A stretch of DNA of 64,000 nt, from positions 1 to 64,000 of the forward strand of contig JAHHHY010000016.1 of NCBI GenBank assembly GCA_019359125.1, read 5' to 3'. Both the position numbers and the translations under genes were made by a program. Below the pieces are notes generated by a model. That model ran no database searches. It saw nothing but the letters and a program-made list of their open reading frames with translations, and was not told the DNA's origin. This DNA is from Pleurocapsa minor GSE-CHR-MK 17-07R. GTDB lineage: Bacteria; Chloroflexota; Anaerolineae; Aggregatilineales; Phototrophicaceae. Shown here one piece after another: positions 225 to 45,133 of the stretch (positions are counted from its first letter, which is position 1; the number at the start of each line of letters is the position of its first letter).

Positions 225-3200
225 CTACCCCACGCGCACCACCTCCACGCCGCTGACGCGCTCCAGCTTGCGCTGAAGCTCCTCGCCCCAGCAGGTCGTG
301 AAATCGAAATCCAGCCATTCCACCTCGTCGGTGTCTTTCTGCGCGATGGCGATTTCAAACGTGTCGCTGCCGGGCAGCTCCCTCAGCGCGCCGATCAGCC
401 GCTCCAGCCGCATCCGGTCACGCGTGATGTCGCCGTTGCGCAGGAAACGGATGGTAATCATGCGCGTCGCCTGCGCTGTGCGCTCGCTTTCAAACATCAG
501 CTCCGGCGGCACATAGGCGGGCGCGGGCGGCGCTGCGGGCGGGGCCGCCATGGAGACGGTGGTGACCTGCGTCGCGCTCACGCCCACTTCGTCGGACGGC
601 CACTCCGGCTCCTGCGACGAATCGGCCACATAGCCCTCGTCGTCGATGTCGTCCGGCGGGGGGATATAAGCGGGCGGCGCGTAGGCCGGGGGCGCGGGCT
701 GGTCGCCCATGATCGGGCGGAATCCATCCTCCGGCGTATCGCGCTGCACCACCACGAAGTCAAACGACTGTGTGGCGCGGTCGACGATGATCTGCGGCTC
801 GCCGCGCTTCAGGTCCAGCGTGCCGTTGATGTGGATGACCTCGCCCTCGACAAACGACTCCTGCAGGCGCGTCCATGTCTTGGGAAACAGCACCGCGCTG
901 ACAGTGCCGTATTTGTCCTCCAGCGTCACGATCGCCATCATGTCTTTCGACTTGGTGACGGTGCGGCGGATGCCCGTAATCAGCCCGACGAAGCGCACCG
1001 GCCGCTCGTGCATGTCCGGCCCGTAGCTGTGCAGCTCGGTGCTGCTGGCGATATTCGAGTCTTTCAGCAGCTCCATCACCGGGTCAATCGGATGGCTGCT
1101 GAGGTACAGGCCCAGCAGGTCTTTTTCCCAGTTCAGCATCTCGCGCACGGTGGCATCGCCCGCGTGTGGCAGGTGCGAGAGCAGGTCGTCGGTGTCGGCG
1201 GCGCTGTCGCCAAACAGGCTGGACTGGCCCATCTCTTTGGTGCGATGCAGGGTGGTGCTGTGCTGCATCAGGCGTTCCAGCGCGTTCAGCAGCGTGGGGC
1301 GCGTGCCGAAGATATCCAGCGCGCCCACCATAATCAGCGATTCCAGCGCCTTCTTGCCCACCTGGCGCAGGTCGACACGGCGGCACAGGTCATCCAGGCT
1401 GGCGTAGGCGCCCGCCCGGTCGCGCTCCTGAATCAGATGCGACAGCGCGCCGATGCCTGCGTTCTTGATGGCCGCCAGCCCGAAGCGGATGGCGCGTTCG
1501 CCGCTGTCCAGATATTCAATGTCGAAGTCAAGCACGCTGTGGTTGATGCTGGGCGGCAGGATGGCGATGCCCAGGCGCTTGCATTCGGCCAGGCAGGCCG
1601 TCACCTTGTCCTTGTCGTCAAAGTAGACCGAGAGCAGCGCCGCCATGTATTCCGGCGTGTAATGCGCCTTGAGGAACGCGCTTTGCACCGTAATGACCGC
1701 ATAGTCGGCGGCGTGACTGTTATGCACAATCAGGTCATTGGCGATGAAGTTGTGGTGACCCTCAATGGTGAGGTCGTAGGTCACTTCTTCGCCACAGGGT
1801 TCAATTGAGACGATTCTGTCCCAGTAAATGTCACTGTGTGCAATCGAAGCTAAAGCTGGTTCGTCGAGGAATTCTGCAATTCTTGCGACGGTCTGCCTTG
1901 AGAATCCTTGTTTTGTGCGCGTGGATACGGGAGACAATTCCCGAATTGCGATACCGGATTGCCTTCCAAACTCTTTTACGGACATGGAACGATCTGCCAG
2001 GTGCTGGCGGATGCTCGTTTTTATGTTCAGCGGAATGATGTCTTTGGTGGAGTCACTTTCCACTTCATGCGTTGTTAGTTGGCAGAGACTAGAACGCTTT
2101 TGCTCTATCACCATATGGGCACCAATGTGCTCATAAAAGCGCGCGATATTCTCCGCTCCGGTCACAAATACCTGCCAGCCAATTCTTCCATCTTTATAGT
2201 TGAAAGTCACTTGCCTTATACGGCTTACAATGCCAAATCGCACGAGCAGATGATGAACTTGGCGGGCAAGCGTTTCAGATGCCGTCGCATAGAAAAGGCT
2301 CCTGCCTTTCAGATTGACATGTCCATCACCATCCCACATGCGTCCGAGGATGATGCCTATGCATCTGTTGGTCAGGCTGAACACCTGCTGAGGTAAAACT
2401 TTGTTGCGTGCGTTCTTGCCCCATAATCCCAGTGATTTGGCCCAATCTACCAAGCCCTGTGGCAGAGAACGATCAATTCGCTTGCTGTAAACTGACCACA
2501 CTTGCTTGTGAGTGCCTATGGATGCTCTGGAATTTGGGAAAGTTTCCATGCATCTAACGTAATCATGCAGGTGATTCTCATCGCCTGTATAGAAATACAC
2601 TCCTGTTGTGTGACAGAGATTTCCTTCCGCAATGAGGTGACCTAATACTGCGCAGTAATTGTCTGGCCACACATCTGTTCCTTCTACAGGAAGCATACGT
2701 GGTGTTGCGATGAAGTCCCCTGGGGACAAACGATCCAGACGATTCCATCCCGATTGCGTCAGGAATGGATGATTGGCAGTCGCTTTGATTTGTTTGCCAA
2801 GCCTGGTTGTGATTCTATATACCGGCTTAAGGCCATTATTGAAAAACGCTGTGATCTTCGCACGTTCCAGCTTGCCGCTTTCTTCGTTCAGAGCAAGGAC
2901 TGATCCGCCTTCATAGTCTTCAAGTGCATCCAGACGCACAAGCGCGCCGGTGTCCGCATTCAGGACGAGCGTGTCGCCGGTCAAACACTTGTTGAACCCA
3001 TAATTGGCGAAGAACTCGATATCGTCGAAGATTTTCCCGGCGATTTCTTTGGTCATCGTCGGGTCGACCTGTGGGCCGCGCTCCTCAAACGTGACGCGGT
3101 GCTTTTGCAGGTCTTCCTTCTTTTTCTTCGACACGGCGCGGCGCATCAGGTCGGCCTCGCCCAGCGAGTAGCCGAACAGCCCGCTGGCCACCTGCATGAT

Positions 3201-5297
3201 CTGCTCCTGGTAGACCATGATGCCGTAGGTCTCTTCCAGGAAGCGGCCCATGCCCGGATGGTGATACAGCACCGGCTCGTCACCATGCATACGGGCGTTG
3301 TAGGTGGGGATATAGTCCATCGGGCCGGGGCGATACAGCGCCACCGCGGCCACGATGTGCTCGAATTTCGACGGGCGCATGTCGCGCAGCATCGACTGCA
3401 TGCCCGTGCTTTCAACCTGGAACACGCCGATGGTATCGCCCCGGCTGAGCAGCACGAAGGCCTGTTCCAGGCGCCTGTCTTCTTCGGGATCGCCGGATGG
3501 TCGGTACGGGATATTGTCCATCGTATAGCGCACGCCATGATGCTTGTGGATCAGGTCGCTGGCACGGCGCACAATCGTCAGCGTGGACAGGCCGAGGAAG
3601 TCGATCTTCAGCAGGCCGATGCTCTCGGCCGTCTCCATCGGGAACTGCGTGACCTGTTTCAGCGCGCTGCGCTCGTCTTCGCGCGTCTGACGTGCCAGCG
3701 GCAGATACTCCACCAGCGGCTGGTCAGCGACGATCACGCCGGCTGCATGCACGCTCGTGTGGCGGTTCATGCCCTGCAGCAGCGTCGCCACCTCCATCAC
3801 ACCTTTGAGCTGGGCATCGCTGTTCACCAGCTTCTTCAGGTCGGGCAGGTCCTCGATATACTGCGGGATCGCCTTCGGCTTCGGCTCGGTGGGAATCATG
3901 CCGACGGCCTGATTGACCACGCTCAGGTCCAGGCCAAATGCGCGGGCCACGTCGCGCACGGCCGCTTTCGCGCCCATCGTCCCGAATGTGATGATCGCCG
4001 CGACTTTGTCCTCGCCGTATTTGCGCACGGTGTAATCGATCATCTCGCCGCGCCGGTCATCGGGGAAGTCCATGTCGATGTCGGGCATGGTCACGCGGCC
4101 GGGATTCAGGAATCGCTCGAACAGCAGGTTGTTCTGGATCGGGTCGATATTGGTGATGCCCAGGCAGTACAGCGCCAGGCTGCCCGCGCCGGAACCGCGC
4201 ACGTTCCACCAGATATCCGCGTGGCGAGCAAATTCGCACAGGTCCCACACGATCAGGAAGTAGGTGTTGAAGCCCATCCGGCTGATCGTCTCCAGTTCGA
4301 AATTGAAGCGCTCCAGCAGCGCGGCATCGTGGCTGGCGCGGTCGCCATAGCGCCAGCGCAGCCCTTTCTCGCACAGATAGCGCAGATAGTCCGGCTCGGT
4401 GAAGCCATCCGGCACGGTGAAGATCGGCAGGTGATAGGTCTTATCATCCAGGTTGACATCGGTGCACATCTCGGCAATCGCCAGCGACGAGGTCAGCGCC
4501 TCGCCGTCGGCGATGTGGCCAAACGTCGCCCACATCTCGGACTGGTCGCTCAGGTAATAGCTGTTATCGCTCAGCGACATGCGCTTCGCCTTGTCCTGAG
4601 ACTTCAGCGCGCCGGTCTGGATGCATAGCAGCGTGTCGTGCGCCTCATAATCGGTGCTGAGCACGTAGTGCACGTCGTTGGTCGCCAGAAAGCGCAGGTC
4701 ATCGCGCTTGCCGATATCGATCAGCCAGTCATTGACGACTTTCAGTTCGGGGATGTCGTGGCTTTGCAGCTCCAGGTAAAAACGGTCACGGCCAAAGACC
4801 TGCAGATGCCAGTCGATCAGGTCGCGGGCGGCATCTTCACGCCCCTCCATAATCATGCCGGGGATTTCAGCGGCCAGGCAACCGCTGGTCACGATCAGGC
4901 CTTCGCTGTGCGCGGCCAGAAACTCGCGGTCGATGCGCGGGCGGTAGTAATAGCCCTCAAGCTGGGCCACCGAGGCGATGCGGCACAGGTTCTTATAGCC
5001 GGTATTGTTCATCGCCAACATCAGCAGGTGCGACGGCGACTTGTCCAGCTTCGGATCTTTGTCGGTCATGCGGCGCGGCGCCAGATAGCCCTCCATGCCG
5101 ATGACGGGCTGCACGCCGGCCTTCTTGGCAGCGCGGTAGAAATCCATCACGCCGTACATCGCGCCGTGGTCGGTGATCGCCAGCGCGCGCATCTCCAGCT
5201 CTTTGGCGCGGCCGACCAGCTTGCCAATTTCGCTCAGGCCGTCCAGCAGCGAATATTCGGTATGCACGTGCAGATGCACGAAATCCTGGGTGCTCAT
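225..5297 (-). CDS. dnaE: DNA polymerase III subunit alpha with intein
   Basis: Replicative polymerase catalytic subunit, 1690 aa before splicing and about 1267 aa after. The N-terminal PHP domain shows HVHTEYS and ITDHGAMYG. The polymerase core has the catalytic motif PDIDMDF (Asp406 and Asp408) and IDFLGL. An OB-fold (RPVRFVGLITGIRRT) follows, then a Pro/Ala-rich linker and a short C-terminal domain. An intein (residues 771-1193) splits the conserved GFNK/SHAADYA motif. The start is set at ATG 5297. An upstream in-frame TTG at 5318 is possible but would leave almost no leader after the candidate extended -10 box at 5339-5347. Transcribed divergently from the TPR-like gene. Identity is very secure. 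Confidence 0.97.
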   Translation of the reverse strand: MSTQDFVHLHVHTEYSLLDGLSEIGKLVGRAKELEMRALAITDHGAMYGVMDFYRAAKKAGVQPVIGMEGYLAPRRMTDKDPKLDKSPSHLLMLAMNNTGYKNLCRIASVAQLEGYYYRPRIDREFLAAHSEGLIVTSGCLAAEIPGMIMEGREDAARDLIDWHLQVFGRDRFYLELQSHDIPELKVVNDWLIDIGKRDDLRFLATNDVHYVLSTDYEAHDTLLCIQTGALKSQDKAKRMSLSDNSYYLSDQSEMWATFGHIADGEALTSSLAIAEMCTDVNLDDKTYHLPIFTVPDGFTEPDYLRYLCEKGLRWRYGDRASHDAALLERFNFELETISRMGFNTYFLIVWDLCEFARHADIWWNVRGSGAGSLALYCLGITNIDPIQNNLLFERFLNPGRVTMPDIDMDFPDDRRGEMIDYTVRKYGEDKVAAIITFGTMGAKAAVRDVARAFGLDLSVVNQAVGMIPTEPKPKAIPQYIEDLPDLKKLVNSDAQLKGVMEVATLLQGMNRHTSVHAAGVIVADQPLVEYLPLARQTREDERSALKQVTQFPMETAESIGLLKIDFLGLSTLTIVRRASDLIHKHHGVRYTMDNIPYRPSGDPEEDRRLEQAFVLLSRGDTIGVFQVESTGMQSMLRDMRPSKFEHIVAAVALYRPGPMDYIPTYNARMHGDEPVLYHHPGMGRFLEETYGIMVYQEQIMQVASGLFGYSLGEADLMRRAVSKKKKEDLQKHRVTFEERGPQVDPTMTKEIAGKIFDDIEFFANYGFNKCLTGDTLVLNADTGALVRLDALEDYEGGSVLALNEESGKLERAKITAFFNNGLKPVYRITTRLGKQIKATANHPFLTQSGWNRLDRLSPGDFIATPRMLPVEGTDVWPDNYCAVLGHLIAEGNLCHTTGVYFYTGDENHLHDYVRCMETFPNSRASIGTHKQVWSVYSKRIDRSLPQGLVDWAKSLGLWGKNARNKVLPQQVFSLTNRCIGIILGRMWDGDGHVNLKGRSLFYATASETLARQVHHLLVRFGIVSRIRQVTFNYKDGRIGWQVFVTGAENIARFYEHIGAHMVIEQKRSSLCQLTTHEVESDSTKDIIPLNIKTSIRQHLADRSMSVKEFGRQSGIAIRELSPVSTRTKQGFSRQTVARIAEFLDEPALASIAHSDIYWDRIVSIEPCGEEVTYDLTIEGHHNFIANDLIVHNSHAADYAVITVQSAFLKAHYTPEYMAALLSVYFDDKDKVTACLAECKRLGIAILPPSINHSVLDFDIEYLDSGERAIRFGLAAIKNAGIGALSHLIQERDRAGAYASLDDLCRRVDLRQVGKKALESLIMVGALDIFGTRPTLLNALERLMQHSTTLHRTKEMGQSSLFGDSAADTDDLLSHLPHAGDATVREMLNWEKDLLGLYLSSHPIDPVMELLKDSNIASSTELHSYGPDMHERPVRFVGLITGIRRTVTKSKDMMAIVTLEDKYGTVSAVLFPKTWTRLQESFVEGEVIHINGTLDLKRGEPQIIVDRATQSFDFVVVQRDTPEDGFRPIMGDQPAPPAYAPPAYIPPPDDIDDEGYVADSSQEPEWPSDEVGVSATQVTTVSMAAPPAAPPAPAYVPPELMFESERTAQATRMITIRFLRNGDITRDRMRLERLIGALRELPGSDTFEIAIAQKDTDEVEWLDFDFTTCWGEELQRKLERVSGVEVVRVG
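1719..2987 (-). mobile_element. DnaE intein with DOD-type homing endonuclease
   Basis: A 423-residue in-frame insertion. It starts with Cys (CLTGDTLV) and ends ANDLIVHN, followed by extein Ser1194. Splicing blocks are visible: block A at the start, block B ATANHPFLT with its Thr and His, and block F/G TYDLTIEGHHNFIANDLIVHN split over the C-terminus. Two LAGLIDADG-type motifs lie between them, LGHLIAEGNL and LGRMWDGDGHV, both with the acidic residue retained, so the endonuclease may be active. A helix-turn-helix-like stretch (FGRQSGIAIRELS...SRQTVARIAEFL) sits between endonuclease and C-terminal splicing block. DNA is visibly more AT-rich than the dnaE exteins, which fits horizontal acquisition. 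Confidence 0.95.
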
Positions 5298-5338
5298 AAG
5301 GCTGCTTTTACGATTCAACAGGCGTCTGATTCAGCCCG

Positions 5339-8004: not shown

Positions 8005-8217
8005 GAGACTTGGTCACCATAAGTGCATACATACATTGGCGGGCACCGATCGCCCGTCAACACACTGCTTTGGTCGTGATCTGCAGCGATTCGAATCTAT
8101 AGTTTTAGCATTATGTATGTGACTTTTACAGGGTTTATTCTCAAATTCTAAGAGTTCGGACGCGGGTCCGTTTGTTATGTTCTGTGAAAACGCTGCTGAT
8201 TGCGCGGTCGGGTGCGT

Positions 8218-8223
8218 TATAAT
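8218..8223 (+). promoter_or_regulatory. TATAAT box for a leaderless gene
   Basis: A perfect TATAAT lies 7 nt before ATG 8231, so transcription would begin at or next to the start codon. No convincing -35 is seen. The same arrangement occurs at 12963 and 27892. The 226-nt spacer (8005-8230) otherwise holds only a small palindrome (CGGAC-GCGG-GTCCG). Confidence 0.5.
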
Positions 8224-8230
8224 GCCGCTC

Positions 8231-10009
8231 ATGAACAGTTCATCTTCCCGTGGATCGTCTTCATTTCGCCTGGCCCATCTGCTGATGCTGGGGCTGATGC
8301 TGTTTGCTTTTGCATGCAGCGCGGTCATGAGCCGGACAGTTTTCGAGCGCATGCCGCATCTGGAGGACGAGCTGGCGTATGTGTTTCAGGCGCGCACGCT
8401 GGCCGGCGGACAGCTCGTGGTCGAATCGCCCCAGCCGCAGGCCGCCTTCTGGCAGCCGTTCGTCGTCGACCGGGACGGCACCCGTTTTGGCAAATACACG
8501 CTGGGCTGGCCCGCGCATCTGACGCTGGGCGAATGGCTGGGCGGCCAGCTCTGGTTCATCAACGCGGCCTTTTCGGCGCTGGCCGTGGGCGTCACCTTTC
8601 GCGTGACCCTTCAAGTTTTTAGTAAGTACGATATTTCCGTGGCGGCGGCGGCGCTGGTCGCCTTCAGCCCGATGGCGCTGCTGCTGAATGCCTCGCTGAT
8701 GGGCCACACGGTCGCGCTGTTCTGGACCGGCCTGTTCATCAGCGCATGCCACAGCCTGGAATATGACCGGCGCGGCGGGCGAAAGCGCCTGCTGTGGGGC
8801 GTCGTGGCTGGCGTGGCGATGGGCCTGCTGGTCATCACCCGCCCCGCGACCGCGCTGGCCGTCGCGATTCCGTTTGCGGCCTACAGCGCCATCCGCCTGC
8901 TGCGTATTTTGCTGCGCGCCCGCCGGACGCTGATTCCCGCCGCCGCGCCGCTGGTCGCCCTGACGGCGGTCACGCTGCTGTTTGCGCTGCTGATTCCCGT
9001 GTACAACTATGCGGCCACGGGAGACGCCCGCCAGAATCTGTACACGCTGGTGTGGGAATACGACCGCATCGGCTTCGGGCCCGGCTATGGCCGCAACGGG
9101 CACACGCTGGAAAAGGGCGTGCGCCACATGCGCTTCGACCTGTCGCTGACGGCCGCCGATTTGTTCGGCTGGCAGGCCGAGCCGCTGACCGACGCGACCG
9201 GCGCGGTGCGCGCCCCGCTGACCGATCATTTCCTCAATCAGGCCGATTACTATCCGGTCGTCGGGCTGAGCTGGGTCCTGCTGCCGCTGGGCTTCCTCGT
9301 CGCGTTCGGGCGGCGCAGTTGGGCGTATTTCCTGTGGGGGCTGATCGGGCTGGCGTGGCTGGCACTGCCCTTTCACCTGGGCGACGGCTCGCTCTCGCGC
9401 AATCCAGACATCGCGTGGATCATCATCTTCGGCCTGATGGCATGGGTGTGCGCGCCGCTGCTGGTGCTGGGCGACCGGCGCGCCACCTGGTCGTGGCTGA
9501 TCGCAGCCGTCGCGCTCTCGCTCATCATCGTGCAGCTCACCTACTGGATCGGCTCGCAGCGATACAGCACGCGCTACTACTACGAGGGCGTGCTGAGCGC
9601 GGCCATTTTTACGGCGCTGCCGATCGCCTGGCTGGCGCGGCGCGTCCCCCGGGGACTCGTCTACGGGGCGTTTGCCGCTGTGCTGGCGCTCAGCTTTTTC
9701 GGCTATGCGGTGCCGCGTGTGGGGGTATTGCGCGGCTTCAACCTGATGGATGGCGCGCTGGTGGCGCAGATTCAGGCGCTGCGCGACCCGGCCCGCGAGA
9801 CGCTGGTGCTGGTCACCGGGGACGATGTGCGCTGGCGCAGTTATGGCGAGCTAATGGCGATCACCAGCCCGTACCTGGACAGCCCGATTGTGGCGGCGCG
9901 CATCACGCCCGGCATCTCGCGTGAGGACGTGCTGGCGCGCTTTCCCGACCGCGAAGTCATCGACCTGACGGCGCAGGAAAATACGATCTTCTTCCCTGAG
10001 CCGCCGTGA
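8231..10009 (+). CDS. GT-C family membrane glycosyltransferase-like protein
   Basis: A 592-residue polytopic membrane protein with about a dozen hydrophobic segments. It resembles the GT39/ArnT-PMT (GT-C) superfamily, which transfers sugars from lipid-linked donors on the outer face of the membrane. The first extracytoplasmic loop contains an acidic pair in HLEDELAY, placed like the catalytic DE/DD of the superfamily. The C-terminal soluble part is short. The start is put at ATG 8231, 7 nt after a TATAAT box; ATG 8222 overlaps that box. A copy of its last 28 codons lies at 11649-11735. Acceptor and sugar are unknown. Confidence 0.75.
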   Translation: MNSSSSRGSSSFRLAHLLMLGLMLFAFACSAVMSRTVFERMPHLEDELAYVFQARTLAGGQLVVESPQPQAAFWQPFVVDRDGTRFGKYTLGWPAHLTLGEWLGGQLWFINAAFSALAVGVTFRVTLQVFSKYDISVAAAALVAFSPMALLLNASLMGHTVALFWTGLFISACHSLEYDRRGGRKRLLWGVVAGVAMGLLVITRPATALAVAIPFAAYSAIRLLRILLRARRTLIPAAAPLVALTAVTLLFALLIPVYNYAATGDARQNLYTLVWEYDRIGFGPGYGRNGHTLEKGVRHMRFDLSLTAADLFGWQAEPLTDATGAVRAPLTDHFLNQADYYPVVGLSWVLLPLGFLVAFGRRSWAYFLWGLIGLAWLALPFHLGDGSLSRNPDIAWIIIFGLMAWVCAPLLVLGDRRATWSWLIAAVALSLIIVQLTYWIGSQRYSTRYYYEGVLSAAIFTALPIAWLARRVPRGLVYGAFAAVLALSFFGYAVPRVGVLRGFNLMDGALVAQIQALRDPARETLVLVTGDDVRWRSYGELMAITSPYLDSPIVAARITPGISREDVLARFPDREVIDLTAQENTIFFPEPP

Positions 10010-10041
10010 TGTGGGCATGACTTTCGCCGACGGCTCTTTAT

Positions 10042-11499
10042 TCACCCTCCGAGCGCATACACCCGCAGTAGAGGACGCCCCGGCGCACCCTCAATTTCAG
10101 CGACCAGCCGACCAGGCGCTGTATCCGGTGCATAAGCCAAGTCTTCCAGCACAGCATAGACATGCGGAGCGCGATTTGCGTCCAACTGGACTGCAAGTGC
10201 CGGAATATCCTCTCCATTCGGATTCAGCCGTGGGCAATCCACCACCAAATCTATCGCGATGTAACGCAGGCTGAGGCAGTTGGCCAGCAGACCAATTACG
10301 CGCTCCGCCCCTTCTTCACGCAGCACCTCCAGCGCTTCATGCAATCCAAAGCCGCTCCCTTCTGCCGTGATGTACTCGTTGCGATCGTTAGTTGTCAGCG
10401 ACAGATTGAGCGGATCGCTCGTCAGTGACGCCGCGAACGGCAGCCAAACCAGCACCGCCCACCCCAGAATTACAGCCAGCGCTGCGCGGCGAATCAGCGG
10501 CCCGTATCTGACACTGATACTCTCCACTGCCACTGCGCCGCACAGTATCAGCAAGTTCAGCGGCGGGATGATATGGCGCGAGTCTTGTCTGCCACTGAAC
10601 GAAAGCACAATCAGCGGTGCGATCAGCACCAGCGGCAGATACAAGCGCCGTCGAAGCAGCAGCACAGTCACACCTGCCAACAGCAGAACCGCCATCAAGG
10701 TACCGGCGTAGCCGTTCAGGGTGTCGAACACCAGCGCCCATTTGTCAAGGTACGTGCTGCGCGCCACGCTGGATGGACTTTGCAGATAAAAGAATGGATC
10801 GATGCCACGTGTAAGCAGCACGCCCAGAAACAGCGCACTAAGTCCCAAACCTGCCAGCAGCGCTATTACACCCCAGCGCGCATTCTCCCGCCATGAACGA
10901 CCTGGCGGCTTCAACGTCAGCGCGGCAGCCAGTGGGATGCCGAGATAGGGCAGCGCCGAGACTTTTGCGCCTACTGCCACGAACAGCACCACGCCGCACA
11001 AAACGGCATCAAGCCATTGCGCTCGCAACCACAGGCGAGCTGCAAAGTATAGGCCTACCAACACCGCTGAAGCAGATACAGGGTCAGCCAGCGCCAGGCG
11101 GTCGAAGAACAAATTGTATGCGCTGAATGTGAACAACAGCGCGGCCAGCACGCCACTCCAACCACCCGCCAACAGGCGTGCAGTAGCTATCGCCGCCGCG
11201 ACGCCTGGAAGGACGCTGAGGATGGTCGCGACACGTGCCACAAACACTGGTGCACCACCCGTCTGCGCTTGTGCCACCACATAAAGCCAGACGGTAAACT
11301 GCCGCCCCTCTTCTGCACGGGCAAGCAGCCCCTGTTCACGCACCAGGTTTCCAAAATTAATATGAAATGCTTCGTCGACAAACGGCGGAAATGCGTTGAG
11401 CGCCACCATGCGCGTTAGCCAGAACAACAACAGCACTGCAACGGCCACCTTGCAGGATAATGCTTTCTTCCTCCTGCTGATTTCTGACTTCATGCTCAT
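10042..11499 (-). CDS. GT39-like membrane glycosyltransferase
   Basis: A 485-residue polytopic protein with an N-terminal membrane helix followed by FPPFVDEAFHINFGN. The DE pair in this first loop is typical of GT39/PMT-type GT-C enzymes. Further hydrophobic helices follow, then a soluble C-terminal domain of about 100 residues. GC content is lower than in neighbouring genes. It is bounded by two 92-bp near-identical copies of the 3' end of the upstream GT-C gene (9923-10014 and 11649-11740), suggesting that this gene was inserted as a unit. It is convergent with the 8231 gene. ATG 11499 and 11493 are both possible starts. Confidence 0.75.
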   Translation of the reverse strand: MSMKSEISRRKKALSCKVAVAVLLLFWLTRMVALNAFPPFVDEAFHINFGNLVREQGLLARAEEGRQFTVWLYVVAQAQTGGAPVFVARVATILSVLPGVAAAIATARLLAGGWSGVLAALLFTFSAYNLFFDRLALADPVSASAVLVGLYFAARLWLRAQWLDAVLCGVVLFVAVGAKVSALPYLGIPLAAALTLKPPGRSWRENARWGVIALLAGLGLSALFLGVLLTRGIDPFFYLQSPSSVARSTYLDKWALVFDTLNGYAGTLMAVLLLAGVTVLLLRRRLYLPLVLIAPLIVLSFSGRQDSRHIIPPLNLLILCGAVAVESISVRYGPLIRRAALAVILGWAVLVWLPFAASLTSDPLNLSLTTNDRNEYITAEGSGFGLHEALEVLREEGAERVIGLLANCLSLRYIAIDLVVDCPRLNPNGEDIPALAVQLDANRAPHVYAVLEDLAYAPDTAPGRLVAEIEGAPGRPLLRVYALGG

Positions 11500-11598
11500 T
11501 CAGGCATACAGGATTGAAGAGAATCTAAGGCATTCACGAGATGAACTTTCACCTAAACGACCAAGTCTCAAGCGGCGAACTGTATGATTACAGCAGAC

Positions 11599-11604
11599 AT
11601 TATA
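11599..11604 (-). promoter_or_regulatory. Candidate -10 box upstream of the GT39-like gene
   Basis: TATAAT on the minus strand, about 100 nt before ATG 11499, in an AT-rich spacer. TTGATC lies 20 nt upstream, which is too far for an ideal -35. The same spacer could also fire towards the FRG gene. Confidence 0.3.
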
Positions 11605-11648
11605 GTGTATATTTTCTCTATTATGATCAATGGACAGGGAAAGTGTAA

Positions 11649-11735
11649 GAGGACGTGCTGGCACGCTTTCCCGACCGCGAAGTCATCGACCTGACGGCGC
11701 AGGAGAACACGATCTTCTTCCCTGAAGCGCCGTGA
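11649..11735 (+). pseudogene. 3'-end remnant of a GT-C gene
   Basis: This segment matches the last 28 codons and stop of the GT-C gene at 8231-10009. The match extends to 11740, aligned with 9923-10014: 87 of 92 bases are identical by my alignment. Four of the five differences are synonymous and one changes Pro to Ala. It has no start or upstream coding sequence. The synonymous bias says it came from a real coding paralogue or allele, not from drift of a non-coding copy. Confidence 0.85.
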
Positions 11736-11780
11736 TGTGGAAGCAAACAGGATTCTGACTTACTCAAGGAGAGATTATAA

Positions 11781-12890
11781 ATGACTGACCTTCATATCCA
11801 GCCATTCAGCTCCGCCAGGGAATTCCTTGAGGCGCTTCGCCTGAGCAACAATAGCTGGTCAAATGATCCGAAAAAAACTCAGGACTGGGAACGTGAATGG
11901 ATTTTCAGAGGAGAAGGACAAGGACCGAACGACACTAATTGGTTTCCATTAATGCCGACGGCTTGGCGTCCAGATAAGCAGAAAATAACGGAGCCACTTG
12001 GGAAGCTGATTCAAGAAATAGATCGGAGTTCGACATTTGGTTCAATGATGAATTCTGATTTATATATTTGGAGATCATGGGTCTATCATAATCAAAACCT
12101 TACGGAAGTTGATCGAGTAGCTAAATTTATGCGTGTCCGTGAAGCGATTCGCGATGCCTTTGCAGAATTGACTTTGGTAAATGAATTTGTCCGGCTTGCC
12201 GATGAAATAGGTTTTTCAATTCAATCATTGCCGGAATGGACAAAGGATGTTGAATCTTTCGTACGAAAATACGTGTCTCTGTATGAACCTGACACTACGC
12301 AACGAGAGCGTTTTGAATCGGAACGGATCCAGTTTGGTGATGAATTTGTTGATCGAAGATTTACGTTTTGGGAATCGCCAGCAATTGCTCTTGCCAGACA
12401 TCATGGTATCCCAACTCGGTTGCTTGACTGGACTCGAAATCCTATGATCGCAGCTTATTTCGCGGCGGCTCAGGCACAGTACAAAGACAATGGCTTTCTC
12501 TCTGTTTACGGGTTGCACACACTTCATACCAGCAGAAAGATCAAAACAGTTGAGGTTATGGCGACCGAAAACGATTTCCTTCGAGCACAGCTTGGGTTGT
12601 TTACTGTTGATATAAAAGGACATTCAGATTACGTGAATCGGGGAAGTTATTCTGGGCTACTAGAATCATTACAAGAAGAGTACGTATTCACACAAAAGCC
12701 CTTTCGAGCCTTTATACTTCCAGTATCCGAAGCATCTGAGTTACTCCGGTTACTATGGGTTGAACGAGTTACTGCGGCTCACCTTATGCCAACCTTGGAT
12801 CACGTAGCTGAAGCTGTTAATTTGAAATTGAAGCTCACTGAAAACATACTCGGCATTGTCAAGAACAAAATAAAAACCACCTTGAAATGA
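11781..12890 (+). CDS. FRG-domain protein
   Basis: A 369-residue protein with the FRG domain (named for its Phe-Arg-Gly motif). WIFRGEGQG lies at residues 40-48, and the diagnostic HHGIPTRLLDWT is near residue 206, followed by AAYFAA. FRG proteins occur in many bacteria, often in variable or defence-related regions, and their biochemical role is poorly known. The gene is strikingly AT-rich against its surroundings and has a textbook Shine-Dalgarno (AAGGAGAG, 7 nt before ATG), unlike the leaderless genes nearby. This suggests transfer from another host. No second toxin, antitoxin or nuclease gene is paired with it. Confidence 0.85.
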   Translation: MTDLHIQPFSSAREFLEALRLSNNSWSNDPKKTQDWEREWIFRGEGQGPNDTNWFPLMPTAWRPDKQKITEPLGKLIQEIDRSSTFGSMMNSDLYIWRSWVYHNQNLTEVDRVAKFMRVREAIRDAFAELTLVNEFVRLADEIGFSIQSLPEWTKDVESFVRKYVSLYEPDTTQRERFESERIQFGDEFVDRRFTFWESPAIALARHHGIPTRLLDWTRNPMIAAYFAAAQAQYKDNGFLSVYGLHTLHTSRKIKTVEVMATENDFLRAQLGLFTVDIKGHSDYVNRGSYSGLLESLQEEYVFTQKPFRAFILPVSEASELLRLLWVERVTAAHLMPTLDHVAEAVNLKLKLTENILGIVKNKIKTTLK

Positions 12891-12962
12891 GTAGGTTTGA
12901 AGACCTTCCCCTTCAAAATGTTAGCTGCGGCGATGTAGTGCCCCGCGCGCACAGTTTCACGG

Positions 12963-12968
12963 TATAAT
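12963..12968 (+). promoter_or_regulatory. TATAAT box for a leaderless gene
   Basis: A perfect TATAAT lies 6 nt before ATG 12975. This predicts transcription starting at the ATG and so a leaderless message for the 12975-14179 gene pair. Confidence 0.5.
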
Positions 12969-12974
12969 CGGGCC

Positions 12975-13505
12975 ATGCAAGCAAATATCCTGCCCGACTA
13001 TCACTTTCTGCTGATCGCGTCCAACCTGGGCAGCGAGTATCTGTTTGATGCGTCGCGCGCCTACTGGCAGGCCTTTCAGCCCATCGTCATTCCCGACACG
13101 CAGTTTCTGGCCATCCTGCCGGTTGGCCGCACCATCAGCGTGACGGTGGTCGCCCTGCGCGATACCGCCCCGCAGTTTGGCGTGGATATCGCCCGTGTGG
13201 CGCCATTCGCGTTTTTCGATCCGGTCGTGTATGACACGCTGGACGAGACGCGTGCCGAGATGAACCGCCGCGCCGCCAGCAATCAGCCGTTTGGGGTGCC
13301 GCTGGGCATCGGCATCGCCACCACGACGCCGTTTATCCCCACGCCGGCCATCACGCTCGCGCCCGGCTATGTCACCGCCACGCCCAACGGCTCTGGCGTG
13401 CCCACGCCGATCACCACTCCGGCGCCCACGGGCGGCGAGGCGGCCGCCACCGGGGCGGCCCCAGCGCCCACCAATACACCTGGTCCCATCATCGGGGGAG
13501 GCTAA
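12975..13505 (+). CDS. Hypothetical protein with Thr/Pro-rich tail
   Basis: A 176-residue protein of unknown function. The first ~110 residues look like a compact soluble domain (ILPDYHFLLIASN, VIPDTQFLAILPVGRTISVT). The C-terminal ~65 residues are Thr-, Pro- and Ala-rich with TPFIPTPAITLAP-type repeats and probably disordered. There is no signal peptide. It begins 6 nt after a TATAAT box and is followed after 5 nt by the holin-4-like gene, so the two are probably co-transcribed. I recognise no family. Confidence 0.6.
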   Translation: MQANILPDYHFLLIASNLGSEYLFDASRAYWQAFQPIVIPDTQFLAILPVGRTISVTVVALRDTAPQFGVDIARVAPFAFFDPVVYDTLDETRAEMNRRAASNQPFGVPLGIGIATTTPFIPTPAITLAPGYVTATPNGSGVPTPITTPAPTGGEAAATGAAPAPTNTPGPIIGGG

Positions 13506-18186: not shown

Positions 18187-18267
18187 GCGAAATATCCCAT
18201 GCTGACGGGCCGCATTTTTATGATATAGCGCACGGATTGGGATATATGGCGGATTTTTTGCTCCAGC

Positions 18268-18397
18268 GGGCGCATCGCGATGCGCCCCTACGCCCCAGTC
18301 ATGCGAAGTATAGATGTACGCGATGGCTATTCAGCATCAGGACAGTTTTTGATGACCGGCCAGGTCGGCAGTTGTAGGGGCGCATCGCGATGCGCCC
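18268..18397. repeat. Composite palindromic repeat (BIME-like)
   Basis: Two perfect 20-bp palindromes GGGCGCATCGCGATGCGCCC, at 18268-18287 and 18378-18397, face each other with CCCCTAC and GTAGGGG on their inner sides and about 85 nt between. Both palindromes carry the same word here, unlike at 156-216 or 33440-33569. The element fills the gap between the convergent asnB and ATPase genes. Confidence 0.8.
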
Positions 18398-18459
18398 GCC
18401 GAAACATTCAACATGACCGCTTTCACACTCACCTCTCTGTCCGCCCCATAACATCCCGC

Positions 18460-20628: not shown

Positions 20629-21882
20629 ATGCATCGCGGAAATGAACGACGGTGGATCACGAGCGCGCTGGTCGCCGGCCTGCTGCTGCTGGCAGCCTGT
20701 CAGGGCGCCATGCCGCCCCCGCCGGACGCAGTGCTGAGCACGCCGCCCGCCGCGCTGGACATCAACACCAGCCTGCGCCAGCCGCTGCCCACGCCCGTGC
20801 CCGCCAACATCGTCAATGATGCCGACGCTGAATATCTGCTGCTGACCAACCTGTACGAGCGCGTCTCGCCGTCGGTGGTCAACATCGAGGTGACGATCGA
20901 CAACCCCGTGCACAGCTTCATCCAGGAGCTGTCCAGCGGCAGCGGCTTCGTGCTGGATGCCGACGGCCACATCATCACCAACGCGCATGTGGTGGCCGAC
21001 ACCAGCAGCATCATCGTCACGTTTAACGATGGCTATGTGGCCGAGGCCGAGCTGGTCGGGCTGGACAGCTACAGCGACCTGGCCCTGCTCAAAGTCGAGG
21101 TCGATGCCGGGCGGCTGTTCCCGGTCACGTTTGGCGATTCCGGGTTGGTGCGCGTGGGTCAGCGGGCGGTCGCCATCGGCAATCCGTTCGGGCTGGCCAG
21201 CTCGATGAGCGACGGGATCGTCAGCGCGTTGGGCCGCCAGCTTCCCAGCGCCGAGATGATCACCAACACGGCGGTCGGCTTTCAGAATCCGAATATCATT
21301 CAGGTGGACACGCCGATCAACCCCGGCAACAGCGGCGGCCCGCTGCTGAACAGCGCCGGCGAGGTCATCGGCGTCAATACGGCCATCCGCACCGAGACCG
21401 GCATCTTCGAGGGCGTCGGCTTTGCCGTGCCATCGGCCACGGTGCTGCGCGTGATTCCCGACCTGCTGGACGACGGCAGCGTGGACTATTCGTATATCGG
21501 CATCTCCAGCGAGTCGGCCGATGACGGCTTTGGCGTGGCCGGGCTGGTCGATGTGCTGGAGCTGCCGGTGCAGGCTGGCGTGCTGATCGCCAGCGTCACA
21601 CCCGGTTCCCCGGCACAGCAGGCCGGGCTGCTGGGCGGCACGCGCGAGGTCAATATCCGGGGACGCACGCTGTGCGTGGGCGGCGACATCGTGGTCGCGG
21701 TGGACGACCTGACCGTGCGCAACATGGACGAGCTGGTCAGCTATCTGGTGACGCACACGCGCCCGGGCGACACCGTGCAGATGCGCATTGTGCGCGGCCA
21801 GGAAACGTTCGACCTGTCCGTGGCGCTTCAGTCGCGGCCCGCGCAGGTGGAGCCATCGCCCGCCTGCGGATCGGCATCCTGA
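20629..21882 (+). CDS. HtrA/DegP-like serine protease lipoprotein
   Basis: A 417-residue envelope protease. An N-terminal hydrophobic segment ends in the lipobox LLAAC, with the lipidated Cys at 24. A trypsin-like domain carries the triad His120 (ITNAHVV), Asp150 (SDLALL) and Ser235 (NPGNSGGP). A single PDZ-like domain follows (VGGDIVVAVDDLTVRNMDELVSYL). HtrA proteases degrade or refold damaged envelope proteins, with the PDZ domain binding C-termini. The start at 20629 is supported by GGAG 8 nt upstream; a GTG at 20608 is less likely. The membrane anchor by lipid, rather than a transmembrane helix, is the main peculiarity. Confidence 0.92.
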   Translation: MHRGNERRWITSALVAGLLLLAACQGAMPPPPDAVLSTPPAALDINTSLRQPLPTPVPANIVNDADAEYLLLTNLYERVSPSVVNIEVTIDNPVHSFIQELSSGSGFVLDADGHIITNAHVVADTSSIIVTFNDGYVAEAELVGLDSYSDLALLKVEVDAGRLFPVTFGDSGLVRVGQRAVAIGNPFGLASSMSDGIVSALGRQLPSAEMITNTAVGFQNPNIIQVDTPINPGNSGGPLLNSAGEVIGVNTAIRTETGIFEGVGFAVPSATVLRVIPDLLDDGSVDYSYIGISSESADDGFGVAGLVDVLELPVQAGVLIASVTPGSPAQQAGLLGGTREVNIRGRTLCVGGDIVVAVDDLTVRNMDELVSYLVTHTRPGDTVQMRIVRGQETFDLSVALQSRPAQVEPSPACGSAS

Positions 21883-33369: not shown

Positions 33370-33439
33370 GCAATAAGTTAAAAGTTAAAAGGCGAAAGTT
33401 AAAAGGGGCGAGGGCAGGATTCGTCAAATTGAACCCGCC

Positions 33440-33569
33440 GGGCGGCTCGCGAGCCGCCCCTACCACAGCCGACCTTGCAGGTCATCAGGGACTGTCGTGA
33501 GGCCAGATACCTGTCGTGATCATTTTTCTTCGTACGGTTGGTGGCGTAGGGGCTCGTCGCGACGAGCCC
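33440..33569. repeat. Composite palindromic repeat, copy 1 of tandem unit
   Basis: GGGCGGCTCGCGAGCCGCCC at 33440-33459 with CCTAC on its inner side, and GGGCTCGTCGCGACGAGCCC at 33550-33569 with GTAGG on its inner side. The two palindrome words differ while the flanks are constant. Confidence 0.8.
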
Positions 33570-33625
33570 GCCGAAACAGCCTGTCACCATGCCTTTTGGA
33601 CCGGCGTCTGTCGGCGTTTCAGCAC

Positions 33626-33756
33626 GGGCGGCTCGCGAGCCGCCCCTACCACAGCCGACCTTGCAGGTCATCAGGGACTTGTCCTGCGGCCAGATACCTG
33701 TCGCAGTCATTTTTCTTCGTACGGTTGGTGGCGTAGGGGCTCGTCGCGACGAGCCC
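33626..33756. repeat. Composite palindromic repeat, copy 2 of tandem unit
   Basis: The same pair of palindromes as at 33440-33569, offset by 186-187 nt. One nucleotide has been gained in the central spacer. Confidence 0.8.
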
Positions 33757-33868
33757 GCCGAAGCAGCCTGTCACCATGCCTTTTGGACCGGCGTCTGTAT
33801 GTCCGCCCATGTCCAGCGCGATCATCCTTCGCCTTTTTTAACTTTTAACTTTCCCCTTTGAAATCTCC

Positions 33869-34369: not shown

Positions 34370-35663
34370 TGTCCATGATGCTGCGCACGCTGCGCTTGCC
34401 GCCGGCCATCAGCGGCAGCACCACGATGAATTCGCTGCCAGGCAGGCGCTCCGGGTCAAAGCCCGGGCTGACCGCGCTGATGCTGCCGCCGTGCGCCTCC
34501 ACCACGCCCTTGCACACCGCCAGCCCCAGGCCGATGCCGCCGCCGCGAAAGGCCGTCTTGCTGGTGGAATGCAGCATATGGTCATTGGTGGTATTGAAGC
34601 GCTCGAAAATGCGATCGACCGCGTCACGCGGGATGCCGATGCCTGTGTCTTTCACGGAAATGCGGATATTGGTGTCTTCCGGGCCGGTGCCCACCAGCGG
34701 CGTGACCGTCACCGTGATGGTGCCATTATCGGGCGTGAACTTGATCGCATTGCCGATCAGGTTGCGCATCACCAGCTCGGTCAGGTCCCAGTCGGCCAGC
34801 ATCCGGCTGGGCGCGCCGGCCAGCGCCAGCGTGATATTCATGCGCCGGTCTTTGATGGCCTGCTGATAGAAGCCCACCGCGCGCTGGATGACCTCGGTGA
34901 TATTGACCGGCGAAATCGACAGTTCCAGACGGTTGTTGATGATACGGCTGGTCGTCAGGATTTCGTTGATGATGGCCTGCATGCGGGTGATCGCCTGGCT
35001 CATGCCCTCCACCAGCAGGCGCGACCCGTCATCCTGGGCCAGCACCGTGCGAATGGCCGGATTCTCCATCAGCAGGCGGTTATAGCCGATCAGCAGCGTC
35101 AGCGGCGTGCGCAGTTCGTGCGCCGTGATGTTGATGAAGGCGTCTTTGACATTGTCCAGATGGCGCAGGTCTTCGTTGAACTTTTCCAGCTCGCGGATGC
35201 GCGTCTCCAGGCGAACGGCCACTTCCTGCGTATAGTTCTTCTGCGCCTGGCCCAGCAGGTCAGACTCAATTTTGTCCTGGCCGCCGCCCAGATAAAAATG
35301 CAGCTGGTTGGGCAGATGCTCCACGTCCAGCGGCTTCAGCAGGAAGCCCGTGATGCCGGCCACCATCGACATTTCGCGCTGGCCGGTCATCACCTGCGCC
35401 GTCAGCGCGACGATGGGCGTACTGGCAAAGCGCGGGTCGGCGCGCAGGGTGGTGGCGATTTCGCGCCCGCCGATGTCCGGCAGGTTGATATCGGTCAGGA
35501 TCAGGTCGGGCAGCTCCATGCGCGCCATGTCGATGCCCTGCAGGCCGCGCTCGGCCGTCAGCACGCGGAAACCGGCAAAATGCAGCGTGCGCTCCACCAG
35601 CATACGGCTGCCGGGGTCGTCTTCGATATACAGGATGGTATAGGGGGCAGATTGTTCGGTCAT
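34341..35663 (-). CDS. Receiver-histidine kinase hybrid, soluble
   Basis: A 440-residue cytoplasmic kinase. A CheY-like receiver comes first (YIEDD at 12-16, phospho-acceptor Asp58 in LTDINLP, Thr88, Lys110 in LLKP). A ~35-residue coiled linker follows, then a HisKA dimerisation domain with phospho-acceptor His182 (TAHELRTPL) and an HATPase_c domain (N-box LIGNAIKF, G1 DTGIGIP, G2 GIGLGLAV). No membrane segment is seen, so the input is either intracellular or phosphoryl transfer through the N-terminal receiver. Its start overlaps the stop of the threonine-synthase-receiver gene by 4 nt. The obvious partner is that receiver domain. Confidence 0.93.
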   Translation of the reverse strand: MTEQSAPYTILYIEDDPGSRMLVERTLHFAGFRVLTAERGLQGIDMARMELPDLILTDINLPDIGGREIATTLRADPRFASTPIVALTAQVMTGQREMSMVAGITGFLLKPLDVEHLPNQLHFYLGGGQDKIESDLLGQAQKNYTQEVAVRLETRIRELEKFNEDLRHLDNVKDAFINITAHELRTPLTLLIGYNRLLMENPAIRTVLAQDDGSRLLVEGMSQAITRMQAIINEILTTSRIINNRLELSISPVNITEVIQRAVGFYQQAIKDRRMNITLALAGAPSRMLADWDLTELVMRNLIGNAIKFTPDNGTITVTVTPLVGTGPEDTNIRISVKDTGIGIPRDAVDRIFERFNTTNDHMLHSTSKTAFRGGGIGLGLAVCKGVVEAHGGSISAVSPGFDPERLPGSEFIVVLPLMAGGKRSVRSIMDNGNSPQGRG

Positions 35664-37339
35664 TCGATTTTTGTCACCAGCTTCTCGACGAGGTCTTCGT
35701 CGATTGAGCCGCCTTTTTGCAATAATAAATGGACCTGGTCATTCAGCCAGCCGCGCTCGCGGGCGGTCAGCTCTTTGGCGGTAATCACGACGATCGGGAT
35801 ACTGTTCAGGCGCGGGTCGGCCTTCATCTGCTCGATCACGGCAAAGCCATCCACGCCGGGCATCATCAGGTCGGTCACCACCAGATCGGGCTGGAAATCG
35901 CGCACCAGCGCCATGCCTTCCGCGCCGTCATGGGCCAGCCGCACATCATAATCACCGCGCGCCTGCATGACGCGGGCGATCAGGCGGGCGGCGTCCACGT
36001 TGTCTTCCATCACGACCACACGGCGCACATTCTCGCTCAGGCCTTCCAGCGCGGAAATCAGGCTTTCGGGCGGCAGCGCGGGCGCATGGGCGCGATGGCT
36101 GACATCGAACTGGCGCTGCCACTGCTCGTCCAGGATTTCCAGCTCCACCGGCAGGGTGTGGCCGGAACAGTTCACGACGACCACATCATCCGGCTTGATG
36201 ATGCCTTCCTGCACCATCTTGAACAGCCCGGCAAAGGTGACGCCGGTGGCCGGCTCCACCGAGATGCCGTCGTTGCGGGCCAGCACACGGGTGGCGTCGA
36301 AGGCTTGCTGGTCACTGGCGGAGATGAATGTGCCACCGAAGTCCTGGACATAGTCGTAGAGCAGTTCGTAGGCGCGGCCCGGATTGCCAGTCGCCAGCGT
36401 GGCGATGACGGTGTCCGGCCGCTCGACGGGCGTGGCGATGCGCTGCCCGCGCTGGAAGGCCTCCACCATCGGCGCGCAGCCCTCAGACTGCACAATGCCC
36501 ATTTTCGGCATCCGGTCGATCAGACCAAAGTCATACATCTCGCGGAAGCCCTTGCCCACGCCGATCGGCCCCATGCCGCCGCTGACCCCCTGGATGAACC
36601 AGTCGGGAGAGCGCCAGCGGGCGTTGTCGTCCGGCACGGCGGGCAGCATCTCGCGATCAAAGGCAAGCTGCTCGGCGATTTCATAGGCCATCGTCTTCAT
36701 CGCCTCGATGGCGGCCGTGCTCTTGATGCCGCGATCGAGGAAGATGCCGCGCCGCGCCGCAAACTTGGCGGCCAGTTCTTTGGTTTGGTCATAGGTGCCG
36801 GTCACCTTGATGACTTCGGCCCCATACAGCGCCGCCTCGCGCATCTTCTCGTTGGGCGTCAGCGTGGGGAAAAACGCCCACACCTTGATGCCCGCGCGCG
36901 CGCCATAGGCCGCATAGGCGATGGCGACGTTGCCGGTGCTGGCCACCACCACTTCTTCCACGCCCAGCTCTTTCAGCGCCGAAATGGCGACCGTGGCCTG
37001 GCGATCCTTGAAGCTGGCGGTTGGGCCCTGGCGCTCGTCCTTGATATACAGGTGTTTCAGCCCCAGATTGGCGGCCAGCACGCGGCTGCGAATCAGCGGG
37101 GTATCGCCTTCGCCCAGCGAGACGATATTGGCCGCGTCGGTGATCGGCAGCACCTCGGCATAGCGCCACAGGCTGTGGCGGCGGCGGCCCAGGTCATCGA
37201 CCCACGCCTCCACATTCAGCTCGCTCAGGTCATAGCGCGCCTCGAGGATATTCTCGCCGCACTTCGGACATCCAGACAGATGCCGCGTCAGCGACATGCG
37301 CGTATGACAGTTGATACATTCCAGTTCAAAACGCTTCAC
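35660..37339 (-). CDS. Threonine-synthase-like PLP enzyme fused to a receiver domain
   Basis: A 559-residue fusion. Residues 8-27 form a CxxC...CxxC zinc ribbon (Cys8, 11, 24, 27). Residues ~70-400 are a fold-type II PLP enzyme with the Schiff-base Lys111 in TASFKDRQA and a glycine loop ASTGNVAIAYAAY, matching threonine synthase (O-phosphohomoserine to threonine). Residues 441-559 are a complete CheY-like receiver: Glu445/Asp446, phospho-acceptor Asp490 (VTDLMMPG), Thr520 and Lys542. The start is GTG 37339 after GGGAA. The downstream histidine kinase overlaps by 4 nt. I infer that phosphorylation tunes catalysis or localisation. Homoserine dehydrogenase lies elsewhere in the window. The PLP call is strong; exact substrate is less so. 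Confidence 0.9.
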   Translation of the reverse strand: MKRFELECINCHTRMSLTRHLSGCPKCGENILEARYDLSELNVEAWVDDLGRRRHSLWRYAEVLPITDAANIVSLGEGDTPLIRSRVLAANLGLKHLYIKDERQGPTASFKDRQATVAISALKELGVEEVVVASTGNVAIAYAAYGARAGIKVWAFFPTLTPNEKMREAALYGAEVIKVTGTYDQTKELAAKFAARRGIFLDRGIKSTAAIEAMKTMAYEIAEQLAFDREMLPAVPDDNARWRSPDWFIQGVSGGMGPIGVGKGFREMYDFGLIDRMPKMGIVQSEGCAPMVEAFQRGQRIATPVERPDTVIATLATGNPGRAYELLYDYVQDFGGTFISASDQQAFDATRVLARNDGISVEPATGVTFAGLFKMVQEGIIKPDDVVVVNCSGHTLPVELEILDEQWQRQFDVSHRAHAPALPPESLISALEGLSENVRRVVVMEDNVDAARLIARVMQARGDYDVRLAHDGAEGMALVRDFQPDLVVTDLMMPGVDGFAVIEQMKADPRLNSIPIVVITAKELTARERGWLNDQVHLLLQKGGSIDEDLVEKLVTKIE

Positions 37340-37395
37340 AGTGGTTCCCGGTTTCAGTTCGAAAGTAACACCTTATTAAGCATATCGCGTTGGCG

Positions 37396-39222: not shown

Positions 39223-39303
39223 AGCGGGTATCTCTATAACCGGATTCAAACAGATGCTATCATAAGTCGACAAGACCTTCCGTTGAATAGTGGGTTTAAG
39301 TCC

Positions 39304-40509: not shown

Positions 40510-40542
40510 CGCTGGCCGTTTGCCCAACCAGGAGCAGTGCTG

Positions 40543-41619: not shown

Positions 41620-42121
41620 CGCGTTTTTCGATGGCCGCGATCAGCCGGTCATAGTCGGCATGACTGCGCGTATTCACGCTGATGACCGGATGCAGCCCTT
41701 CTCCTGAAAAGAACCCCACCAGCCGATACTGCGGCGGCAGCCCGCGCAGCAGCAGCAGCTTGCCCGCCGCAGGGCGGTATTTCTTTTTGCCCACAGCGCG
41801 CTTGCGATACACTTCCGCACCTTCCGGCGGCAGCGACGGGTCCTCGGTCAGCGCGAGTACATCCACCCACGGCACGAGACGGTCACGCCACACGGCCGGT
41901 TGCAGCAGCAGGCCGTCCTCGCGCAGCGTGATATCCGGGGCACGGGCGGTATTCTGCAGCACGGGCAGGGCCAGCAGCGCCAGGAAAACGGCCGCCAGCG
42001 CCATCAGCGGATAGCCAGACGCCCCGATCAGCCCCAGCACGGCGGCGCACACCCACATAACGATCGTCAGGATCAGCGCGCCGATTTCGCCAGCGCGTTT
42101 GCCTTTCAGCGATGATTGCAT
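41597..42121 (-). CDS. Small membrane protein with PH-like domain
   Basis: A 174-residue protein with two N-terminal transmembrane helices (IGALILTIVMWVCAAVLGLIG and PLMALAAVFLALLALPVL). The soluble domain that follows resembles bacterial PH domains (ITLREDGLLLQPAVWRDRLVPW). AAGGA lies just upstream of ATG 42121. The upstream DUF2142-like gene ends 11 nt earlier on the same strand, so the two probably form an operon. No function is assigned. Confidence 0.65.
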   Translation of the reverse strand: MQSSLKGKRAGEIGALILTIVMWVCAAVLGLIGASGYPLMALAAVFLALLALPVLQNTARAPDITLREDGLLLQPAVWRDRLVPWVDVLALTEDPSLPPEGAEVYRKRAVGKKKYRPAAGKLLLLRGLPPQYRLVGFFSGEGLHPVISVNTRSHADYDRLIAAIEKRVTRPPAG

Positions 42122-42132
42122 GTCATTCCTTC

Positions 42133-43467: not shown

Positions 43468-43528
43468 CCTGTGCTGAACGAAAGTCATAAATGATTTGCA
43501 AAAATATAGTGTACCAGACCGCGAAAAT

Positions 43529-43557
43529 TTGCCGTTTTTTCATTTTCACACTCTACT
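43529..43557 (+). promoter_or_regulatory. Candidate promoter of the TPR/PPC protein gene
   Basis: TTGCCG (43529-43534) and TCTACT (43552-43557) are spaced 17 nt in an AT-rich stretch. Both boxes are imperfect. Confidence 0.3.
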
Positions 43558-43606
43558 TATGCACAATCAGAAATGTAACGCGCAGTGCCAAAAGGAAAAC
43601 CAGGCG

Positions 43607-44950: not shown

Positions 44951-44956
44951 TTACCC

Positions 44957-45118: not shown

Positions 45119-45133
45119 CGTGTGCTGCGCTCG

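Follow-up and report, generated by a model that had tools for sequence, protein, structure and literature searches.

A putative displaced 3' end behind a glycosyltransferase-like gene suggests gene acquisition by ordinary recombination in a Chloroflexota genome

Why would the last codons of a gene occur a second time, in the same orientation, on the far side of an unrelated neighbour? The question is raised by a 64,000-nt window (the whole stretch of DNA that was analysed, to which all positions without a contig or locus label refer) of a Chloroflexota genome of 4.85 Mb in 23 contigs. Here, the 3' end of a GT-C-type membrane glycosyltransferase-like gene (hereafter GT-C) is present once in place (copy A) and once more (copy B) behind a GT39-like gene of opposite orientation and ahead of an FRG-domain gene (Table 1). 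The original prediction saw in this layout the pattern of an element that integrates in the 3' end of a gene, with its integrase lost, and named recombination between paralogues as the simpler alternative. We favour another explanation, at a probability of about 0.58: copy B would be a displaced 3' end that arose when two versions of a gene-turnover spot, one with the GT39-like gene and one with the FRG gene, were joined by one-sided homologous recombination. Similar tail copies beside other genes of this genome and of E. coli point to ordinary recombination, rather than an integrating element since lost, as the way in which genes were acquired.

The repeated gene end and the turnover spot behind GT-C

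The two copies align without gaps over 92 bp at 94.6% identity (87 of 92 positions; E about 2e-34 for a comparison inside the window), which bears out the repeat as originally described, with five differences of which four are synonymous. Each copy takes in the final 28 codons of GT-C, its stop codon and a further 5 bp. Substitutions fall at repeat positions 15, 57, 60, 78 and 79; read in the frame of GT-C, four changed codons are synonymous and one, the second-last sense codon, is changed from P to A. Homology is confined to the 92 bp, as the adjoining stretches on both sides score within shuffles, and copy B is preceded by an in-frame TAA. A search for further copies of the 92-bp word next to cargo genes or integrases had been suggested as a check; over the whole 4.85-Mb genome, it returned only copies A and B. 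Nor did the right-hand border of the FRG gene, compared at 12850-13010, yield a third tail copy.

The surroundings of GT-C in relatives point to a site of gene turnover. A GT-C match was present in 44 of 60 relatives, with identities of at most 56% over the gene length and up to 62% over parts, and each relative has a single locus, G053 alone having pieces on two contigs; a scan of genome contigs for GT-C gave eight loci at 29-52% identity. Thirty of the 44 loci were fetched, and 29 were read after G031, in which the gene is cut, had been dropped; the loci in G009, G014, G007 and G036 end less than 800 bp past the GT-C stop and are uninformative on downstream genes. Eight of the 29 (G004, G005, G006, G010, G011, G017, G023 and G028) carry, downstream of GT-C and on the same strand, an ATPase that we take to be ArsA-like, and G029 has this ATPase in inverted orientation. 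Between the GT-C stop and the ATPase lie as few as 105 bp in G005, where the interval is empty, and up to 2426 bp in the others. Elsewhere, the interval holds methyltransferase-type genes (in G010 and G011, which are related to each other), a pair of Uma2 genes (G004), SnoaL, glycosyltransferase and MarR genes (G006), a PAD-type gene (G028) or one gene without a Pfam match (G023); G017, too, has a gene there. Since the contents vary and one interval is empty, the 3' side of GT-C is a gene-turnover spot, whose alternative contents and empty form are seen at genus and family distance.

In such a spot, one version might have held GT-C followed by the convergent GT39-like gene, and another a diverged GT-C' with the FRG gene behind it. 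The DNA that came in would have undergone homologous recombination on the GT-C side and a non-homologous join at its other end; alternatively, it might have circularised and integrated by one crossover. Either way, the product would read GT-C, GT39-like gene, tail of GT-C' and FRG gene, the order found today. For E. coli conjugation, the one-sided route has been reported at low frequency, and a linear molecule may there also become circular and enter through a single crossover (PMC3240628). That the GT-C locus took the same route as the other loci described below, which of its copies is the newcomer, and the recombination route itself are what we infer from these comparisons.

Copies of gene tails at other loci

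If gene tails are displaced in this way, remnants should not be peculiar to GT-C. Partial gene copies were counted in 2.48 Mb with 1788 genes (1.196 Mb of the own genome, 0.705 Mb of relatives, 0.243 Mb of G001 and 0.340 Mb of E. coli K-12), a partial copy being one of less than 40% of a gene within 10 kb. Ten of the 16 copies reached the 3' end of their gene, six were internal and none reached the 5' end. All 16 are direct, and nine of the ten 3' copies lie downstream of the gene; five come from the own genome, four from relatives, one from E. coli K-12 and none from G001. The excess of 3' ends has a P of 3e-12 against random placement in the gene and of 0.002 against 5' ends. Start codons are those set by a simple gene caller, a limitation that affects 5' ends more strongly than 3' ends; if C5:2977-4497, which begins 22 bp from a predicted start, is counted as a 5' end, the ratio becomes 10 to 1 (P 0.012). 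A single 19-kb locus of G012 accounts for three of the ten hits, and the GT-C case itself for another.

Three other counts were made. An earlier count over 1429 genes listed 20 copies of 3' ends, no 5' end and one middle part, several of these being short tandem repeats behind the gene. With G001 added and the score limit lowered, a second count included a 32-bp hit in inverted orientation as well as a pair of paralogues in G001. The filter used in these two counts could hide 5' remnants that had been called as small genes; the count of 16 was made without it. When intergenic sequence served as the target, there were again 16 hits, ten of them no more than 20 bp from a 3' end; one, at the end of a G001 contig, came equally close to a start, and a further hit in a tandem gene begins 37 bp from the start. 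In E. coli, a 39-bp copy 96 bp behind rcsC fell just below the score limit of the final count. Pairs whose neighbours resemble the gene over at least 40% of its length were left out, including the two Uma2 genes of G004 and a five-copy family at C15:36605-52297. This last region is an observation in its own right: on contig C15 of G000 (35533-53203; L168, L169), five copies of one C-terminal-coding end, about 170-250 bp long and 87-94% identical, are spread over 16 kb, some on longer open reading frames (ORFs) and some alone, with genes between them; they were excluded from the count as a gene family.

The individual cases involve quite different genes. The tail of an SCO1 gene recurs over 64 bp at 95% identity, and here the WD40 gene lying between stops short where the displaced end begins, with a longer relative of it coming next, as would be expected if two alleles had been joined. 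An amidohydrolase gene has a 75-bp tail copy at 83%. Further 3' ends belong to FUR, alpha-amylase and response-regulator genes in G012 and to a phage-capsid-family gene in G008, and the tail copies of the amylase gene frame one convergent gene, just as at GT-C.

An allelic series is seen in E. coli. In strain MG1655, a 145-bp copy of the kdpE 3' end (90% identical), annotated as pseudogene ybfI, lies in direct orientation behind speF-potE; the K-12 order is kdpE, speFL, speF, potE, ybfI and then further genes, and the annotation shows no integrase between the two copies. Between kdpE and pgm, O145 RM12367-C1 has no gene, MZ1211 has one, and ATCC 25922 (by sequence) and Ec-042-T0 (by annotation) have speF-potE without ybfI, which makes four states among five E. 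coli genomes. A 451-bp query across the K-12 ybfI/potE junction was matched with at least 80% coverage in 1811 of 5426 E. coli genomes, and a 301-bp query across the empty interval with at least 80% in 316 of 5426, the latter possibly including near-empty forms since pieces up to about 650 bp apart were joined. Like GT-C, kdpE has a direct copy of its 3' end behind other genes with no integrase annotated between; unlike at GT-C, this copy is longer and more diverged, and empty and alternative allelic states are known in E. coli only.

The differences between gene tails and their copies also bear on how they arose. Eight pairs were tabulated, among them the two Uma2 genes of G004; together they show 33 changed codons, of which 20 are synonymous and 13 non-synonymous. 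For two neutrally decaying copies, P would be 5e-5, 3e-4 or 1e-3 at assumed synonymous fractions of 0.27, 0.30 or 0.33. Owing to this synonymous excess, the divergence is unlike neutral decay of both copies, and by their codon changes the tail copies look like ends of functional gene versions.

Weighing the explanations

A number of results count against a joining of two alleles at GT-C. Neither GT-C followed by the GT39-like gene alone nor GT-C followed by the FRG gene alone was seen in the 29 loci of relatives, of which the nearest GT-C is 56% identical, and the ArsA-like ATPase of the own genome lies on contig C6, apart from GT-C, so the spot has been rearranged in other ways too. Measured against one neutral and one constrained copy, the surplus of synonymous codons is small, with a P of 0.018 or 0.05 at assumed fractions of 0.41 or 0.45, so an old duplication in place may also fit the divergence. 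Nor did the other loci yield a donor or, in one case, an empty site: ybfI is 88.7% identical to the kdpE of MZ1211 and 89.0-90.3% identical to the other four of five versions, hence no closer to MZ1211, and no donor is identified; for the amidohydrolase gene, no empty site was found, the flanking genes lying on different contigs in G012, the sole relative of 14 with both. As for the count, the 243 kb of G001 hold no 3'-end case at all, and among the ten 3' hits there are two weak ones that might be of another kind: C5:396048, of 32 bp, lies upstream and concerns a tandem gene family, and C15:52301, of 40 bp, has a dispersed intergenic repeat close by. Without them the ratio is 8 to 0 (P 0.008), and without the GT-C case as well it is 7 to 0 (P 0.016). 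The scan is also incomplete: with the limit raised to 20 kb, it still did not list icd/icdC, a known pair 15 kb apart, of which icdC had been called as a separate gene and would be dropped by the filter then used. Finally, one-sided recombination should leave 5' ends of downstream genes, of which the count of 16 showed none. Our guess is that an insertion ahead of a gene, parting it from its promoter, may be selected against.

Closest to the original prediction is the idea of a tyrosine-recombinase element that carried its own copy of the GT-C end, entered the gene at that end and has since been stripped of the integrase. The anatomy on which that prediction was built is there: a diverged copy keeps the GT-C frame and a second end lies on the far side, as in e14-type elements, the scar type matches icd/icdC around prophage e14, and the gene between the copies has lower GC. 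What found no support is site-specific integration. Among seven genes at the copies and next to them, a Pfam scan detected no recombinase, and the whole genome has one PF00589 match above the cut-off (contig C19) and one below it (C22), serine recombinases and transposases not having been searched genome-wide; with no recombinase nearby and only one above the cut-off in the genome, an integrase-bearing element becomes less likely. Moreover, comparable scars occur at several unrelated genes whose end sequences are unrelated, which a single att-specific recombinase would not explain, and E. coli has such a scar around speF-potE, where the annotation gives no integrase. We therefore consider a decayed integrative element unlikely. 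A tandem GT-C duplicate, deleted except for its last 92 bp and with the GT39-like gene inserted later or caught between, strikes us as similarly unlikely. Recombination between paralogues is simple, and in G012 the response-regulator tail behind a second histidine kinase resembles the rest of a duplicated pair. However, no full-length second GT-C was found and none of the 44 relatives with a match has two GT-C loci (leaving aside the pieces in G053), which speaks against this simpler alternative, and random deletion has no reason to spare 3' ends only, as the ten against zero 5' ends would demand.

Two strain variants of the spot might also have been joined by the assembler. The genome, in 23 contigs, may be metagenomic, and the layout looks like two haplotypes in series, but an assembler is blind to stop codons, yet the copies favour 3' ends, and the same layout exists in the finished MG1655 chromosome, with the potE/ybfI junction recurring among E. 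coli genomes in the numbers given above. We judge such a chimera improbable. Less likely still is a class of small cassettes without a recombinase of their own, made of one to a few genes plus 45-90 bp of a host 3' end, that would enter exactly behind stop codons, could spread by way of any gene's tail and would use gene tails as general landing sites. In a diversity-generating retroelement (DGR), too, a gene is closely followed by a direct copy of its own 3' end; DGRs feature a reverse transcriptase and adenine-specific differences. Copy B is placed behind GT-C as in that layout and could in principle be functional, as a template for changing the GT-C sequence or as a leader of the FRG gene. 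Against a DGR, there is no reverse transcriptase among the seven scanned genes, and the differences are not restricted to adenines of either copy, four of the five being synonymous; against a leader, the in-frame GTG of copy B has, as judged by eye, no spaced ribosome site. A functional role for copy B is thus hardly credible.

Should the joining of two versions of the spot by one-sided recombination be the right explanation, leftover gene tails would mark integrase-free gene uptake and would be searchable in any genome. E. coli kdpE offers a locus with several states present among sequenced strains, and the GT-C locus itself would be a case of ordinary gene turnover.

Gene neighbourhood and comparison with known systems

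Table 1. Positions of the genes and repeat copies at the GT-C locus (in the window), and of the kdpE tail pair of E. coli
Feature	Position	Strand or orientation	Basis or remark
GT-C-type membrane glycosyltransferase-like gene, host of copy A	8177..10009	+	ORF start 8177; likelier start 8234 or 8285
Copy A, 3' end of GT-C	9923..10014	+	repeat search
GT39-like gene between the copies, 485 aa	10042..11499	-	weak match to PMT_2, 19.8 bits, below the cut-off of 26.1
Low-GC region upstream of the GT39-like gene, ending at the copy B junction	11500..11648		GC windows
Copy B, putative displaced 3' end, 5 substitutions relative to copy A	11649..11740	+	repeat search
FRG-domain gene, low GC, next after copy B	11781..12890	+	PF08867, 55.8 bits (cut-off 25); PADLOC PDC-S15
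kdpE tail pair, E. coli K-12 MG1655	L209:16720-16864 and 21055-21199	direct	repeat scan

The GT-C gene is without a Pfam match, and its name is the label given in the original prediction. The lower GC of the GT39-like gene and its opposite orientation were borne out: in 300-base windows, this minus-strand gene has a GC of 0.57-0.61 vs 0.61-0.71 in GT-C. An orthologue in G008, from the same genus, is 76% identical and has different neighbours; at L112:8702-9761, it adjoins another displaced 3' end, that of the phage-capsid-family gene. To the right of copy B, GC drops further to 0.41-0.46 at 11800-12999. The FRG gene starts 46 bp past the stop codon of copy B and matches the PADLOC candidate defence family PDC-S15 (PDLC04937, E 2e-22) over residues 198-353 only, a profile match that makes it a candidate defence gene. 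Among the 60 relatives, it has distant relatives only, the best at 35%. A plasmid search with the DNA at 9800-13000 and a search of phage records with the FRG protein gave no match. Elsewhere in the window, the minus-strand gene at 225-5318 encodes DnaE, the DNA polymerase III alpha subunit, with a LAGLIDADG intein (PF14890 at residues 789-1200, PF14528 at 991-1066). A 174-bp tandem pair, 96% identical, occupies 33439-33611 and 33625-33798, and an inverted stretch 15 kb from the pair (18266-18401) is 74% similar to it.

Our literature search on the general pattern and on the kdpE insertion, beyond toxin and effector loci, surfaced only the meningococcal galE remnant. In meningococci, the capsule island is framed by galE1 and the truncated remnant galE2 (PMC5349592), so that, as at GT-C, the acquired genes are bordered by an intact gene on one side and by a truncated remnant of that gene on the other; the island differs in its size of 24 kb. 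The icd and icdC copies around prophage e14 of E. coli K-12 differ at 12 positions in 165 bp, with nine changed codons synonymous and two not. They resemble the GT-C pair in that a diverged 3' end lies on each side of an insert and changes are mostly synonymous, whereas e14 has an annotated integrase, intE, and spans 15 kb.

Turnover without integrases is also known at a larger scale. Oliveira et al. (2017, PMC5635113) described hotspots of horizontal gene transfer without mobile elements between recombining core genes and proposed flanking homologous recombination as their cause. The spot behind GT-C is similar in showing turnover between conserved genes without integrases; leftover gene ends, which set it apart, are not brought up in the part of that study drawn on here. 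A parallel is offered by the type VI secretion system (T6SS) clusters of V. cholerae, with their displaced effector genes and orphan immunity arrays (Kirchberger et al. 2017, PMC5361080). There, new genes enter behind a conserved region and the old parts, in one instance an effector 3' end, shift downstream together with their old neighbours; no integrase is known, and a route akin to homology-facilitated illegitimate recombination has been proposed. The genes concerned differ, being toxin effectors and immunity genes in V. cholerae and a glycosyltransferase-like gene with unrelated neighbours at GT-C, but at GT-C, too, an old 3' end would have been shifted downstream with its neighbours, and no integrase shows among the scanned genes.

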